Positions 7,301-62,451 of a stretch of 64,000 bases of DNA are shown here, one piece after another. The translations under genes and the position numbers were made by a program. Location: NCBI RefSeq assembly GCF_963675165.1, contig NC_087378.1, positions 7,989,273 to 8,053,272 on the forward strand, in the 5' to 3' direction. The DNA comes from Halichondria panicea (lineage: Eukaryota > Porifera > Demospongiae > Suberitida > Halichondriidae). Numbering within the stretch: position 1 is the first letter of the stretch; every line of letters begins with the position of its first letter. Under the pieces are notes generated by a model that saw only the letters and a program-made list of their open reading frames with translations, did no database searches and was not told where the DNA came from.

Positions 7301-10300
7301 AGGGTGGGTATGGGTTGGTGGTGGGTGATTAAAGCTCTTATAAGCATGCATGCTCTTAGCATGTGCCTGTGTGGGATCTAGTTGCAATCAGACCATTAAC
7401 TTGATATGCCATTAGCAAGCACTTGTGTGCCCACATCCCCATGATCATGAATGAGGGTGTTCAGCAGCTAATGACCCACCAGAGACAGTGAGCCAGGCTG
7501 GGAGGGTGGGTATGGGTTGGTGGTGGGTGATTAAAGCCTATCCATCTCCCCACACATACTCAAGTCTTTGATACAGCTGTTGATATTATCAACTGAGAGA
7601 GGTGGGTGGGCCCCACACTTGCAGTAAACACTCTAGAGGCAGTTTTAAAGTTTTATTCTTAAGGTTACAGTCATAATTATGGCTGTGGATGTTTATATAC
7701 TCAAACAAGATTATGTGCATCCAAGAATGTTTGAAATGTATCTGATTCAGTGTGTTCCACTTCTCTTGTTTCTGCAGATTCATCAATCGCTTTAGGAGAG
7801 AGTCAGAAATGAAGAGTGAAGCAGGTTACTACTTCACACAAATGGTAGCTCTCTTCTTTGGGTGTGTGTGTGTAGTGTACAAGCTTCCTCTGGGAGTGCA
7901 GACATAGGAAGGGACCTAATTATGTCAACCCATTTGTTAGTTGGTAAATCCCACTAAATGTAGAAATTCCTTCCCTATGTATACTTGTACTGAATGCATC
8001 ATTGAAGGGAACATTGTTACAACCACAGGTGGTTATTTCCTTGGTCTGGGTCTGAATGGATTACAACCTCCCACCTCCAATAATTATGTATGCCAATTAA
8101 AACAGTCATTAGCTTTAGATAGAGGGGCATTAATTCTATTGTAGCCTATAATCAAGTCATGGGATTTGTGCACTGTCCATAATTATAATGATAATAGATG
8201 TATTAAAGCTTGTGCCTCCTTTCAGCTATACAAGGTTACATAGCCACCTTTATACTTGTACTCAGTGAATAGACATATTCAATAATTTGGCTGAATTATT
8301 TGTCTGAATGGGTAGAGCAGACAATGGATGACTGAGAAAAGTTGCTATAGGGCCCAGACTGACTGTACACCCACACACTAGTGATAGTGCTGTGTCTGGT
8401 GTGAGCTCGTAACATGCTAACAAACACATACCCCGATACTTTCACTACACACCACTCACTCATCCACTCTTGTTGGTCTTCCGTGAAATTGTATCACACA
8501 CACACACACACACACACACACACACACACACACACACACACCACGCACACACACACACACACACACACACACACACACACACACACACACACACCACGCA
8601 CACACACACACACACACACACACACACACACACACACACACACACACACACACACACACACACACACACACACACACACACACACACACACACACACAGG
8701 AGAGCGCTGTGATGTTCATCATGGAGGTACAGCATCGCAACCTGTCTCTCTCCCAGGAAGAGTTTGACAGGTGAGACACAAGTGCATACTTCAACTTAAG
8801 AGTTCACTCACTTGTAACAAAAATGTGGTTATAAGTTATGGATCAGATTTCTGGCACTTTCAAAGTATTTTCTTAGAAGACCCTAGTTGTGGTTTCATAC
8901 CTAGCAACAGTTTACATGCCAGGTATCAATGTTTTGAATTACCAGAAATTAAATGTGTAATAGCACACCTTTGTCTCCACTGGAGGAGTACTAGCTTAAT
9001 GAAGCTTAATAGCTACAGTGCTACTTAGAATATTTTCAACTGGGCTTTACGTGACAGTTTAGTTGAACTTGCCTGATTCCACCTACGTTTTTGTTGCGTA
9101 GTGAGCACCTACGTGTACAGTGAGAAAATCAGGCCATTTGAATGGTGCAATTTAGTGACTTGTATGTAAGTACTATTTTTGAGGAGCTGTAGAAAATTTC
9201 CCAAATATGCAGTGTCTAGTGTATATAGCCTATGACCTATGATTTGGCCTTTGGATCGTGAGAAGCATCTTTTAATTTGTAGAGCAATTTGTCAAAGGAA
9301 TAGTTGAAATTTCCAACTCAATAAGTACTCAATTGCTTCAAGCCTTTTGGGGATTTATGTTGTCAAGGTAGCTATAGCTCTGTGCTATGCAAAGCTAGCT
9401 AAGGAACTTTCAGTGTGTACATGACATTGAAGTCTTCAGTGATGTTCTGAGAAATGACTTCCAGTATTAACTTCCCATATTTCCCGACATGTTGCAGCTT
9501 CAGTACTTATGCAATCTACAAAGCTTCCTTGAGGAAATGTGTAGCTGTCGATCTTCACATTAATTTATTCTGCATGCTACCATAGATTGAAGAGTTAGAG
9601 GGATAGGAAACGGTTGGTATCTCGAGTAACATCCGCACTACGCTGCGGTTTAATCGAGGCCATCACAACAATACCTATTTCTACATTCAGTGCATAATAA
9701 ACTACAAGTAACTGTGCTTAGTCTGTGTAACTCACTTATATTTCAAGGTCTATACCTATATTGTAGTAGTCATAACCAGCACGCTTACACGTTATATGTT
9801 CCAATAGCTCTAAAACAGCTTTGGGAACTTATAACTTTATTGGAAAGTCTCTTTTTACTGGGTGTGGTCAGTCATTAGCAAGTACTACACATGGCTCATG
9901 GACTAGGCGTGTTATAAATTGCTGAAAGAGATGATGTCTCGAGGAAACACAGCTTTGGGAATTACCCGGCAAAAATGTGCTTAATAGCCTCGTTCATAGG
10001 GCGTAACGCGGATAGTTTTTGAGGCCCCACTGCAGATTCAATGTAAAATCATCACGTGCACCACTCTGTTTCCTATCCCTCTAACTCTTCAATCTATGAT
10101 GCTACTGAACTCATTATCATCTATGCCAACCAGCTCCAAGTTTAGTTTATGGATGGCTTGATTAGCTAAGACCTGTAGCTGCTCTGTAGCTGCTCTGATT
10201 TAAGTCCCCCCCCCCCCCCCCCCCCCCCCCCCCGGGTGTCTTCTTTTGCCACTGTATTGTATAATTATTGTTGTTTTGAGACTGCATCTGCATGCATGAT

Positions 10301-59941: not shown

Positions 59942-62451
59942 ATGTCTACAGCAAAGGCGTCCCTCATAGATATGGGGTTCCCTGAGAACAGAGCGTGAGT
60001 ATAGGCCTATATAATAATAATAATAATAATAATAATAATAATCGATGCTTTACAGTATGACTTTACATTTGGACAGGGTGAATAATAATTGTGATGGGTC
60101 AGAAATTAAGATCATGCTGACAGGAAGTTCCTAGAAGGAACACCTGCGTAAAATTTATACATAATTATACAGTTATACAGAACAACAGCAATTAATTGTC
60201 ATGACACCACCCTTGCCACTTCACACACACACACACACACACACACACACACACACACATACGCGTGCACAGGGAGAAAGCTCTGGCTGTGACTGGAAAT
60301 CAAGGAGTACAGCTTGCTATGGATTGGTAAGGCTATTAAGTCTACCATGTGACATTAGTTTATTCCTATATAAACCGAGCTAATATTAATGATTGCTTTA
60401 TGTACGTATGTACTTATGTATTTAGATCTACAGAGCTAGTGCTACTAGTGCTACACGATATTTTATACATTCTACACAGGTTGTTTGCCCACCAAGATGA
60501 TGCTGATATTGATGCTCCCCTCCCAGAGAGCTCCTCTGGCCAGACCCTCGGGGAGAGTGGAGCAGTTGAGGGAGGACAGGCCGAACAAGCCACTCAAACA
60601 GCTGCTCCGAAATCAATCAAGTGTGAAGAGTACGTTTTGATGCTCCAATATTCTAGAAAGAATGTCTCACTGTTTATTGCATATTCTGATATTCAGTTGT
60701 GGGAAGTTGTTCAAGAGTGAGCTAGATGTTCAGGTAAGTCTGTTTCTATTTCATGGCACAATTATTTTTTTAAGTGGCATGCCTCCCCTTTGAAATGTAC
60801 CAGTCCAGTAACAGGTAGACTGTCCTCCATTTAGGATTACATGAACTCCTGGTACCCCTATACCCACGTACCCCCAGGATTGCATGAACTCTCAGCATAA
60901 TTACAATATGGGGTATAGACTGAGGAGTGGGCATTGGGTTAGCTCTCTTCATCGATAGCTAGAAGACTCGGTTACTGCCTTTGTTTATGTTGGTACAGGC
61001 CCATGCTGCAAGAACCCAGCACAGCAACTTCTCTGAGAGCACAGATGAGATTAAGCCACTCACGGCAGAGGAAAAACTGAAACAGCTAGCCAGGTATATA
61101 CTTGTCTGTTTGTAATTAGGATGGCTGGTATGGATCACCCTATCTAATGAGGCGGTATCACTAAGTTGTTGAAACTCTCGTTCCTTTGTATGCAGATTAG
61201 AAGAGAAAAGAAAGCAAAAGAAACTAGAACGTGAGGAACAGGAGAAAAAGGTGGGTAAAAGTTTTAGTGCCCAAAACTGTTGACTATTTTTCGTTCAGGA
61301 AGCAGTTAGCAAGGAAAAAATCCGCAGAAAAACAGGCCAAGAGTTATCTGACATCAAGCAGAAGTAAGTAGTGTGAGGCATGCAGCTGTTTACTTACTTA
61401 CCTAACTTGTTTTTTTCCGGTAGGATTGAACTGCAAGAGGCCAAAAAGTTTGCTGCGGAAAAAAAACGGGAAAAGATGGAAGACAAACTTGCAAGGTCAG
61501 CATTATAATTCTAGAATGTGGCACCACGTTTACTGACACTCTGTATTCTGTGATTGCTTCGCCCTTGGCATTGGTTGCTGTAATTATACATCCTATCATT
61601 AACTAGTGATGACATCATATCACGTATGTGTGCAATGTTGCAGGCAGAGAGTGCGAGATCAGATAGCACTTGACAGAGCAGATAAAGAAGCAAGAGCTGC
61701 TGCAGAGAAAGCAGCCTCTTCCTCACCGACAAAGCTGCCAGCTCAGCAGTTAGCACAACCTCCCACAGTTAGTACACCTTCTGTCAAGAAGGAGTACACC
61801 ACATGTCGACTGCAGGTGACTTGCAGTGTTAAGATCATCCCATAATTATCCTATTCATGCTCTGTAAGAGTAAAAGCACTCACTTGCACAGCAAGAAGAG
61901 TTACTTCCACAATACTGAGTGTAGACTATTATATATTCAGATCTTAGGAGGTGTATTATTGTATTGTTTGGACACTTGTATATAAATACATTTATCGTAG
62001 GTATATAGCTAACGCTGTTGCTTTGGAGGGATACCTTATCCATAGCTCTGCACACTGCTGCATTCAAGCACCTTCATACTGAGAGGCTTGTAATTATTAT
62101 TGTACTATAATTTATTAGAAATTTCTCTATTATCTATGATTGTGTAGGCATTTTTGTTCCCTTGTTTGGTTGTACAGATTCGTCTGACCGATGGTGGGAC
62201 TCTAGTGCACACGTTCAACGCCACTGACTCTCTGGTGGATGTGAACCAGTACATCCTCATGAACCAGAGTGGAGAGAACTCTCCCTACTCTCTCATGACC
62301 ACCTTCCCACGCAGAGTGTTCACTCATCATGACCACAACAAATCTCTCAATGAACTTGGTGAGTTGTATCAATATTGTTATGAGTTAATATTTTTCCTCT
62401 TCTGCAGGTTTGGTACCGTCAGCTGTTGTTGTTCAAACAAAAGGCACTTGA
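59942..62451 (+). CDS. UBXN1: UBX domain protein 1 (UBA, C2H2-like finger, coiled coil, UBX)
   Basis: Ubiquitin- and p97/VCP-binding adaptor. Exons: 59942-59994, 60273-60326, 60480-60629, 60697-60733, 60999-61093, 61196-61250, 61299-61363, 61424-61495, 61644-61815, 62178-62358, 62408-62451 (978 nt, 325 aa). The UBA domain is at residues 1-38 (SLIDMGFPENRAEKALAVTG, QLAMDWLFAH). An acidic linker follows. A C-x2-C...H-x5-H finger at about 84-108 (CEDCGKLFKS, AHAARTQH) is assembled only after splicing exons 3, 4 and 5. A highly charged coiled coil (LEEKRKQKKLEREEQEKK, RRKTGQELSDIKQK) leads to the UBX domain at about 245-325 (CRLQIRLTDGGTLVHTF, FPRRVFT, LGLVPSAVVVQTKGT). Intron 1 ends in a CA tract. 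CCDC89-like starts 190 bp downstream on the same strand. Confidence 0.94.
60223..60258 (+). repeat. (CA)n tract near the 3' splice site of UBXN1 intron 1
   Basis: About 18 CA units ending 14 nt before the acceptor (GCGTGCACAG, exon at 60273). An (AAT)n run lies earlier in the same intron (60010-60043). Confidence 0.92.

Follow-up and report, generated by a model that had tools for sequence, protein, structure and literature searches.

In the sponge Halichondria panicea, a stretch of 64,000 nucleotides (nt) of contig NC_087378.1 (assembly GCF_963675165.1, positions 7,989,273 to 8,053,272; hereafter the window, with positions counted from its first letter) contains eight 3' splice sites (acceptors), in RABGEF1-like, DIDO-like, INTS9 and UBXN1-like genes, that follow CA-rich sense sequence. 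The same polarity was found outside the window, where repeats of at least five units on the acceptor side of predicted introns read CA in 14 cases and TG in 2 (binomial p = 0.004). The orientation bias of long CA repeats, seen at acceptors and inside introns, looks real and moderately strong, a mild rule and not a universal one. The best explanation for now, held tentatively and a little short of probable, is that CA microsatellites are tolerated in the slot of the pyrimidine tract and that long UG is purged.

The replication set (L009–L035, all outside the window) comprised 264 kb, of which 20.4 kb were N, with 394 predicted introns; genes with fewer than 240 coding bases were excluded. The introns come from a small self-trained predictor of exons and introns; in the variant behind the counts its acceptor model was limited to AG and to C or T at position −3, and it was therefore blind to the sequence further upstream. 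The main threshold was at least five CA or TG units on the sense strand, the acceptor and donor zones were 60 nt each, and a tract close to both ends of an intron was assigned to the nearer end; a TG tract 38 nt from the acceptor of a short intron in L013 was scored as donor-side by this rule. Genome-wide pattern searches covered the 131-Mb genome.

Eight CA-rich acceptors in the window

The eight introns tested are collected in Table 1 with two introns that run against the rule. In the raw sequence all eight acceptors are preceded by CA-rich sequence on the sense strand, as the original prediction had claimed. It had also placed a CA tract directly, or within about 15 nt, before each acceptor; this holds for seven of them, with a run of at least five units no more than 13 nt from the intron end, and fails at 47008, which, given the shortness of its longest run, is CA-rich and not a repeat. 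Its word "always" had to be given up: a TRM11-like gene carries sense GT or TG tracts in two introns, and the CA rule is thus a tendency. The protein of this gene matches the TIGR01177 methyltransferase family below the family cut-off (E 4.7e-9) and gave no match in Pfam or PDB; the names DIDO, UBXN1 and TRM11-like are tentative assignments from domain content.

Table 1. Introns and repeat tracts of the window; distances are from the nearest CA run of at least three units to the intron end.
Feature	Coordinates	Strand	Acceptor exon	Longest unbroken CA run (nt)	Distance to intron end (nt)	Remarks
RABGEF1/VPS9-like intron	7845..8699	+	8700	100	1	interrupted CA tract 8495-8698 ending CAG
GT run of the RABGEF1-like intron, 12 nt	7862-7873	+				begins 17 nt past the donor
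DIDO-like intron, SPOC exon	25299..26089	−	25298	60	5
DIDO-like intron, TFIIS_M exon	28128..28937	−	28127	23	5
DIDO-like intron, PHD exon	31786..32519	−	31785	13	4
INTS9 intron, 105 nt	47009..47113	−	47008	9	16	CA-rich throughout
INTS9 intron	47925..48089	−	47924	19	4	C run, then CA run
INTS9 predicted first intron, 59 nt	48532..48590	−	48531	21	7	GC run, then CA run
UBXN1-like intron, UBA exon	59995..60272	+	60273	38	13
TRM11-like intron, 100 nt	41103..41202	+				sense GT nearly throughout; counterexample
(TG)5 sense tract, TRM11-like gene	42229..42238	+				43 nt before the acceptor at 42282; counterexample

As modelled, all eight introns have GT-AG ends; the 5' ends of several were revised relative to the first models. 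The intron before 47008 had measured 281 nt in the first prediction, and the exon that now precedes it was tentatively assigned by its resemblance to INTS9. The donor of the intron before the PHD exon was placed at 32519 in one model and at 32371 in another, of which 32519 fits the PHD finger.

Homology backs all eight positions: the alignment spans the joint in six, and in the remaining two it sets in with the exon's first residues. In detail: 8700 – once 7845–8699 is removed, the protein matches VPS9 and Rab5 exchange-factor chains in an alignment free of gaps at the joint, with a Pfam VPS9 match; 25298 and 31785 – the SPOC domain and a complete PHD finger, respectively, are restored, with the joint within the alignment; 28127 – the joint is residue 612, inside the TFIIS_M match 569–705; 60273 – residue 18, inside the UBA match 6–48; 47924 – residue 80, inside the alignment 4–110 to human INTS9; 48531 and 47008 – the exon's first residues open the INTS9 alignment.

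Ordinary acceptors are weakly pyrimidine-rich (52–65% pyrimidine at positions −19 to −6, 265 introns). For uridine, 353 of 502 introns (window included) passed the filters, and the 282 of these that are tract-free have a mean of 10.9 uridines in 30 nt, with a minimum of 2; the eight CA acceptors have 0, 1, 0, 1, 5, 0, 0 and 2, that is 0–2 in seven of them, and no U-rich tract. A CA tract being inherently free of U, the low count restates the replacement, and the point of weight is that no U-rich tract was left beside it. That the CA tract stands "instead of a pyrimidine tract" was accordingly upheld as regards the missing uridines; the contrast is weaker than it had seemed, since the ordinary tract is itself weak. 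In the 59-nt predicted first intron of INTS9, 0 uridines were counted in the 30 nt upstream of position −3. In the RABGEF1-like intron the 292 nt that precede the acceptor AG contain no other AG, and a CTAAC motif lies 279 nt upstream; together they suggest a branch point that is either distant or inside the CA tract.

Over the whole window, 6 CA and 14 TG tracts of at least five units lie on the plus strand; of the TG tracts, 8 are in the minus-strand DIDO-like and INTS9 genes, one more gene on that strand has 1, and the other 5 are in plus-strand genes. By the counting rule of the replication set the window has 7 CA and 1 TG acceptor tracts. A 38-nt unit is repeated 10 times at 25679–26058, inside the DIDO-like intron with the CA tract at 25305.

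Orientation and length of repeats outside the window

Counted by hand per gene, the acceptor tracts of the replication set come from 10 genes for CA (14 tracts) and from 2 for TG (2 tracts). At the same threshold 13 CA and 5 TG tracts were counted in mid-intron, and 3 CA and 7 TG on the donor side. In a randomisation the orientation of each tract was flipped at random and all genes were re-predicted (24 runs): acceptor side – mean 7.9 CA and 7.3 TG, difference (CA minus TG) −8 to +7, observed +12, reached in 0 of 24 runs; mid-intron – difference −11 to +6, observed +8; donor side – mean 3.7 CA and 5.9 TG, observed difference −4, inside the randomised range. A prediction artefact as the source of the acceptor and mid-intron bias was rejected by this procedure, and the claim that orientation follows the transcript was thus reproduced on independent DNA. 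The predictor leans to TG at donors, and the donor counts (including 14 CA vs 52 TG at three units or more) are therefore not evidence.

The bias depends on length. With tracts of at least three units it is absent (acceptor side 45 CA vs 37 TG, mid-intron 71 vs 73), and among these tracts five units or more are reached at acceptors by 14 of 45 CA and 2 of 37 TG (p = 0.004), and at acceptors and mid-intron together by 27 of 116 CA and 7 of 110 TG (p = 0.0004). Short UG is not avoided: near the acceptors of 265 introns (window included) TGTGTG occurs in 30 and CACACA in 24. The comparison of CA with TG near acceptors that had been proposed as a check, made here on 264 kb, therefore favours the original prediction for long tracts and not for short ones.

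Twelve of the 14 CA acceptor tracts end no more than 16 nt from the intron end, which is the place of the pyrimidine tract. The acceptor-side sequence, 20.3 kb in all, holds 14 tracts of at least five CA units and the mid-intron sequence, about 90 kb, holds 13, which gives a density about five times higher at acceptors. The link to acceptors that had been claimed is borne out by this enrichment and qualified by the preference for sense CA in mid-intron, which makes the bias in part a feature of repeats in introns.

A Pfam scan of 10 of the 18 replication genes with tract-bearing introns supported the predicted strand by domains in 7 (9 CA and 1 TG acceptor tracts) and gave no support in 3 (3 CA and 1 TG). 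Independently of annotation and with the window included, neighbouring tracts of at least five units have the same orientation in 25 cases and the opposite in 13, which is suggestive only; the order within opposite pairs was TG-then-CA in 6 and CA-then-TG in 7. In L021 and L022, when joined, a predicted minus-strand gene at 11685–16184 has two RRM domains; two of its own acceptors have CA tracts, and one donor has a GT tract nearby. It looks like the splicing factor PUF60.

Donor-like motifs followed by repeats were counted over the genome: AGGTAAGT with (GT)5 within 30 nt – 16 forward and 88 reverse (backward controls 21 and 32); GGTRAGT with (CA)5 at 25–55 nt – 90 and 387 (controls 525 and 103); GGTRAGT with (GT)5 at 25–55 nt – 222 and 1301 (controls 839 and 239). 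Long tracts were counted many times in one search direction, and the other direction was read as one match per motif start; in these single-match directions (16 vs control 32, 90 vs 103, 222 vs 239) neither repeat is enriched after the donor-like motif. The test is weak, since GGTGAGT also occurs within decayed GT arrays and most of the motifs need not be donors. A near-identical AGGTAAGT motif with a short GT tract was met in 18 places on contig C7 (G000), at 5.88–7.29 Mb and all on the minus strand, as one repeat family.

Explanations of the polarity

In the explanation favoured here, ordinary (CA)n microsatellites would grow directly upstream of the acceptor, replace the weak U-containing tract and be tolerated; a CA tract has neither AG nor GU in it and would leave the terminal YAG usable, so that splicing would survive. 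In the reverse orientation, the pre-mRNA would contain long runs of UG. Repressive splicing proteins of the TDP-43/CELF kind bind long UG, and such runs would also offer cryptic GU donors. PMC12276007 cites TDP-43 on the TG repeats of CFTR and states that long UG can fold into pUG quadruplexes. As repressor ligands, quadruplex formers and sources of cryptic donors, long sense-TG tracts would be removed by selection, and orientation would follow the transcript because one of the two was filtered out, not because of a dedicated CA acceptor code. A TG tract is richer in uridine than a CA tract; the preference for CA therefore does not come from the function of the pyrimidine tract and would rather point to avoidance of long UG, and a general filter of this kind predicts the bias that was observed in mid-intron. 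Two observations call for an explanation, namely that acceptors accept CA for a U-containing tract and that long, not short, TG is scarce in sense introns; UG purging explains the scarcity of TG, and tolerance, seeding or benefit explains the CA at acceptors.

The following weighs against this explanation. Purging alone does not account for CA being roughly five times as dense at acceptors, for which tolerance, seeding or benefit has to be added; the mid-intron counts give a binomial p of only 0.10; tract counts are small, with several tracts per gene; and the donor-anchored genome counts, a weak test, gave neither a preference for CA nor one for GT near donors. Sense-TG runs of 102, 162 and 570 nt lie in predicted introns of L035, L027 and L034, the 570-nt run in a gene without Pfam support and the other two in genes outside the Pfam scan. 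A search for the TDP-43 N-domain gave no match and was uninformative, control searches having matched nowhere. In human, UG repeats of at least 12 units are reported to be enriched near both splice sites (PMC12276007), and a universal UG filter is therefore not to be expected.

Alternatively, the CA tract would be a positive acceptor element, read by an hnRNP L-like protein that defines U-poor acceptors, so that inclusion of the exon can depend on repeat length. This is rather doubtful, though the acceptor density, the position of the tracts at the intron end and the scarcity of uridine at the eight acceptors all speak for it; the same orientation bias in mid-intron speaks against it. The hnRNP-L_PTB family TIGR01649 gave 12 exon-level matches at two main and two weaker loci, the main ones matching in several exons each; all are below the family cut-off, and hnRNP L is not distinguishable from PTB among them, so that a CA-reading factor in the genome is possible. 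An unlikely, more specific version is that, in an animal outside the vertebrates, near-uridine-free CA-repeat acceptors form a class that can do without a U-rich tract and without a GT partner at the donor, served by a CA-reader or by distant branch points, in which repeat length would set inclusion, for example in INTS9. A neutral strand asymmetry, by which transcription-linked slippage or repair lengthens sense CA over TG, or splice-site motifs seed CA, agrees with a bias that concerns length and not presence and that reaches mid-intron, and 5 of the 14 replication acceptor tracts run straight into AG, as seeding from CACAG would give. However, a transcriptional effect should reach the donors, where TG is the more frequent (in counts that lean to TG), and T stands at −5 in 147 of 282 tract-free introns, which makes ordinary acceptors poor CA seeds; this neutral origin is likewise judged improbable.

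Bridging as in zebrafish, where a donor-side GT tract would pair with the acceptor-side CA tract and join the ends of the intron, is very unlikely here. The RABGEF1-like intron has both tracts (duplex −31.1 vs −20.7 shuffled, z = −2.4), the DIDO-like intron 31786–32519 gives z = −2.9, though without a GT repeat, and both tracts at four or more units co-occur in 2 introns vs 0.52 expected (277 introns, L009–L028). On the other hand, seven of the eight window introns have no GT run of at least three units anywhere, six have no excess duplex, and at three units or more the co-occurrence in the same 277 introns is 5 vs 4.48 expected. Genome-wide, GT-then-CA was found at 19 sites vs 12 in the reverse order, in the single gap range of 100–130 nt; by our own estimate hundreds would be expected if several per cent of introns of such size were bridged, and bridging is thus at most rare. 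As a general explanation it was rejected on the GT runs (one intron in eight) and on these genome counts.

Further features, related systems and significance

Scans of the window with Rfam at the gathering threshold and for tRNA gave no matches. An 81-nt unit is repeated 5 times with 96% matches at 14818–15227, inside a predicted intron. A minus-strand glycosyltransferase family 92 gene (Pfam) and a second gene that by eye resembles it closely were noted at 50818–52158 and 55762–56913, and a further fragment similar to them is predicted at 52699–52919 on the plus strand. Tandem repeats were found in predicted coding exons of three genes: 34952–35134 (36 nt), 38199–38472 (45 nt) and 49566–49771 (about 39 nt).

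Lin et al. are said to have described in 2016, in Genome Res 26:12, zebrafish AC/GT repeat introns that are spliced without U2AF2. Such introns are treated in the review PMC9198270; they resemble the present ones in the sense CA repeat just upstream of the acceptor and in the U-poor acceptor, and differ in that the donor GT repeat is absent here in seven of eight introns and a large GT-then-CA class (gap 100–130 nt) was not found. The hnRNP L-dependent CA-repeat splicing elements of eNOS (Hui et al. 2003, cited in PMC2777938) are likewise sense intronic CA repeats near a splice site; those of the sponge are known from their sequence. Human poly(UG) repeats (PMC12276007) involve the same double-stranded dinucleotide repeat near splice sites with the reverse preference, whereas the acceptors studied here retain CA and seldom have long UG. 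Among the papers listed by searches on repeats, introns and splicing, judged by titles and the openings of abstracts, none reports such an orientation rule outside vertebrates.

If borne out, CA-repeat acceptors such as that of the 59-nt predicted first intron of INTS9 would provide a natural test of the minimum of uridine that a metazoan acceptor requires. Which orientation of a dinucleotide repeat is favoured at splice sites may differ between lineages, with CA kept at acceptors here and UG reported as enriched near splice sites in human, and the length of the repeats near these exons may be functional variation.

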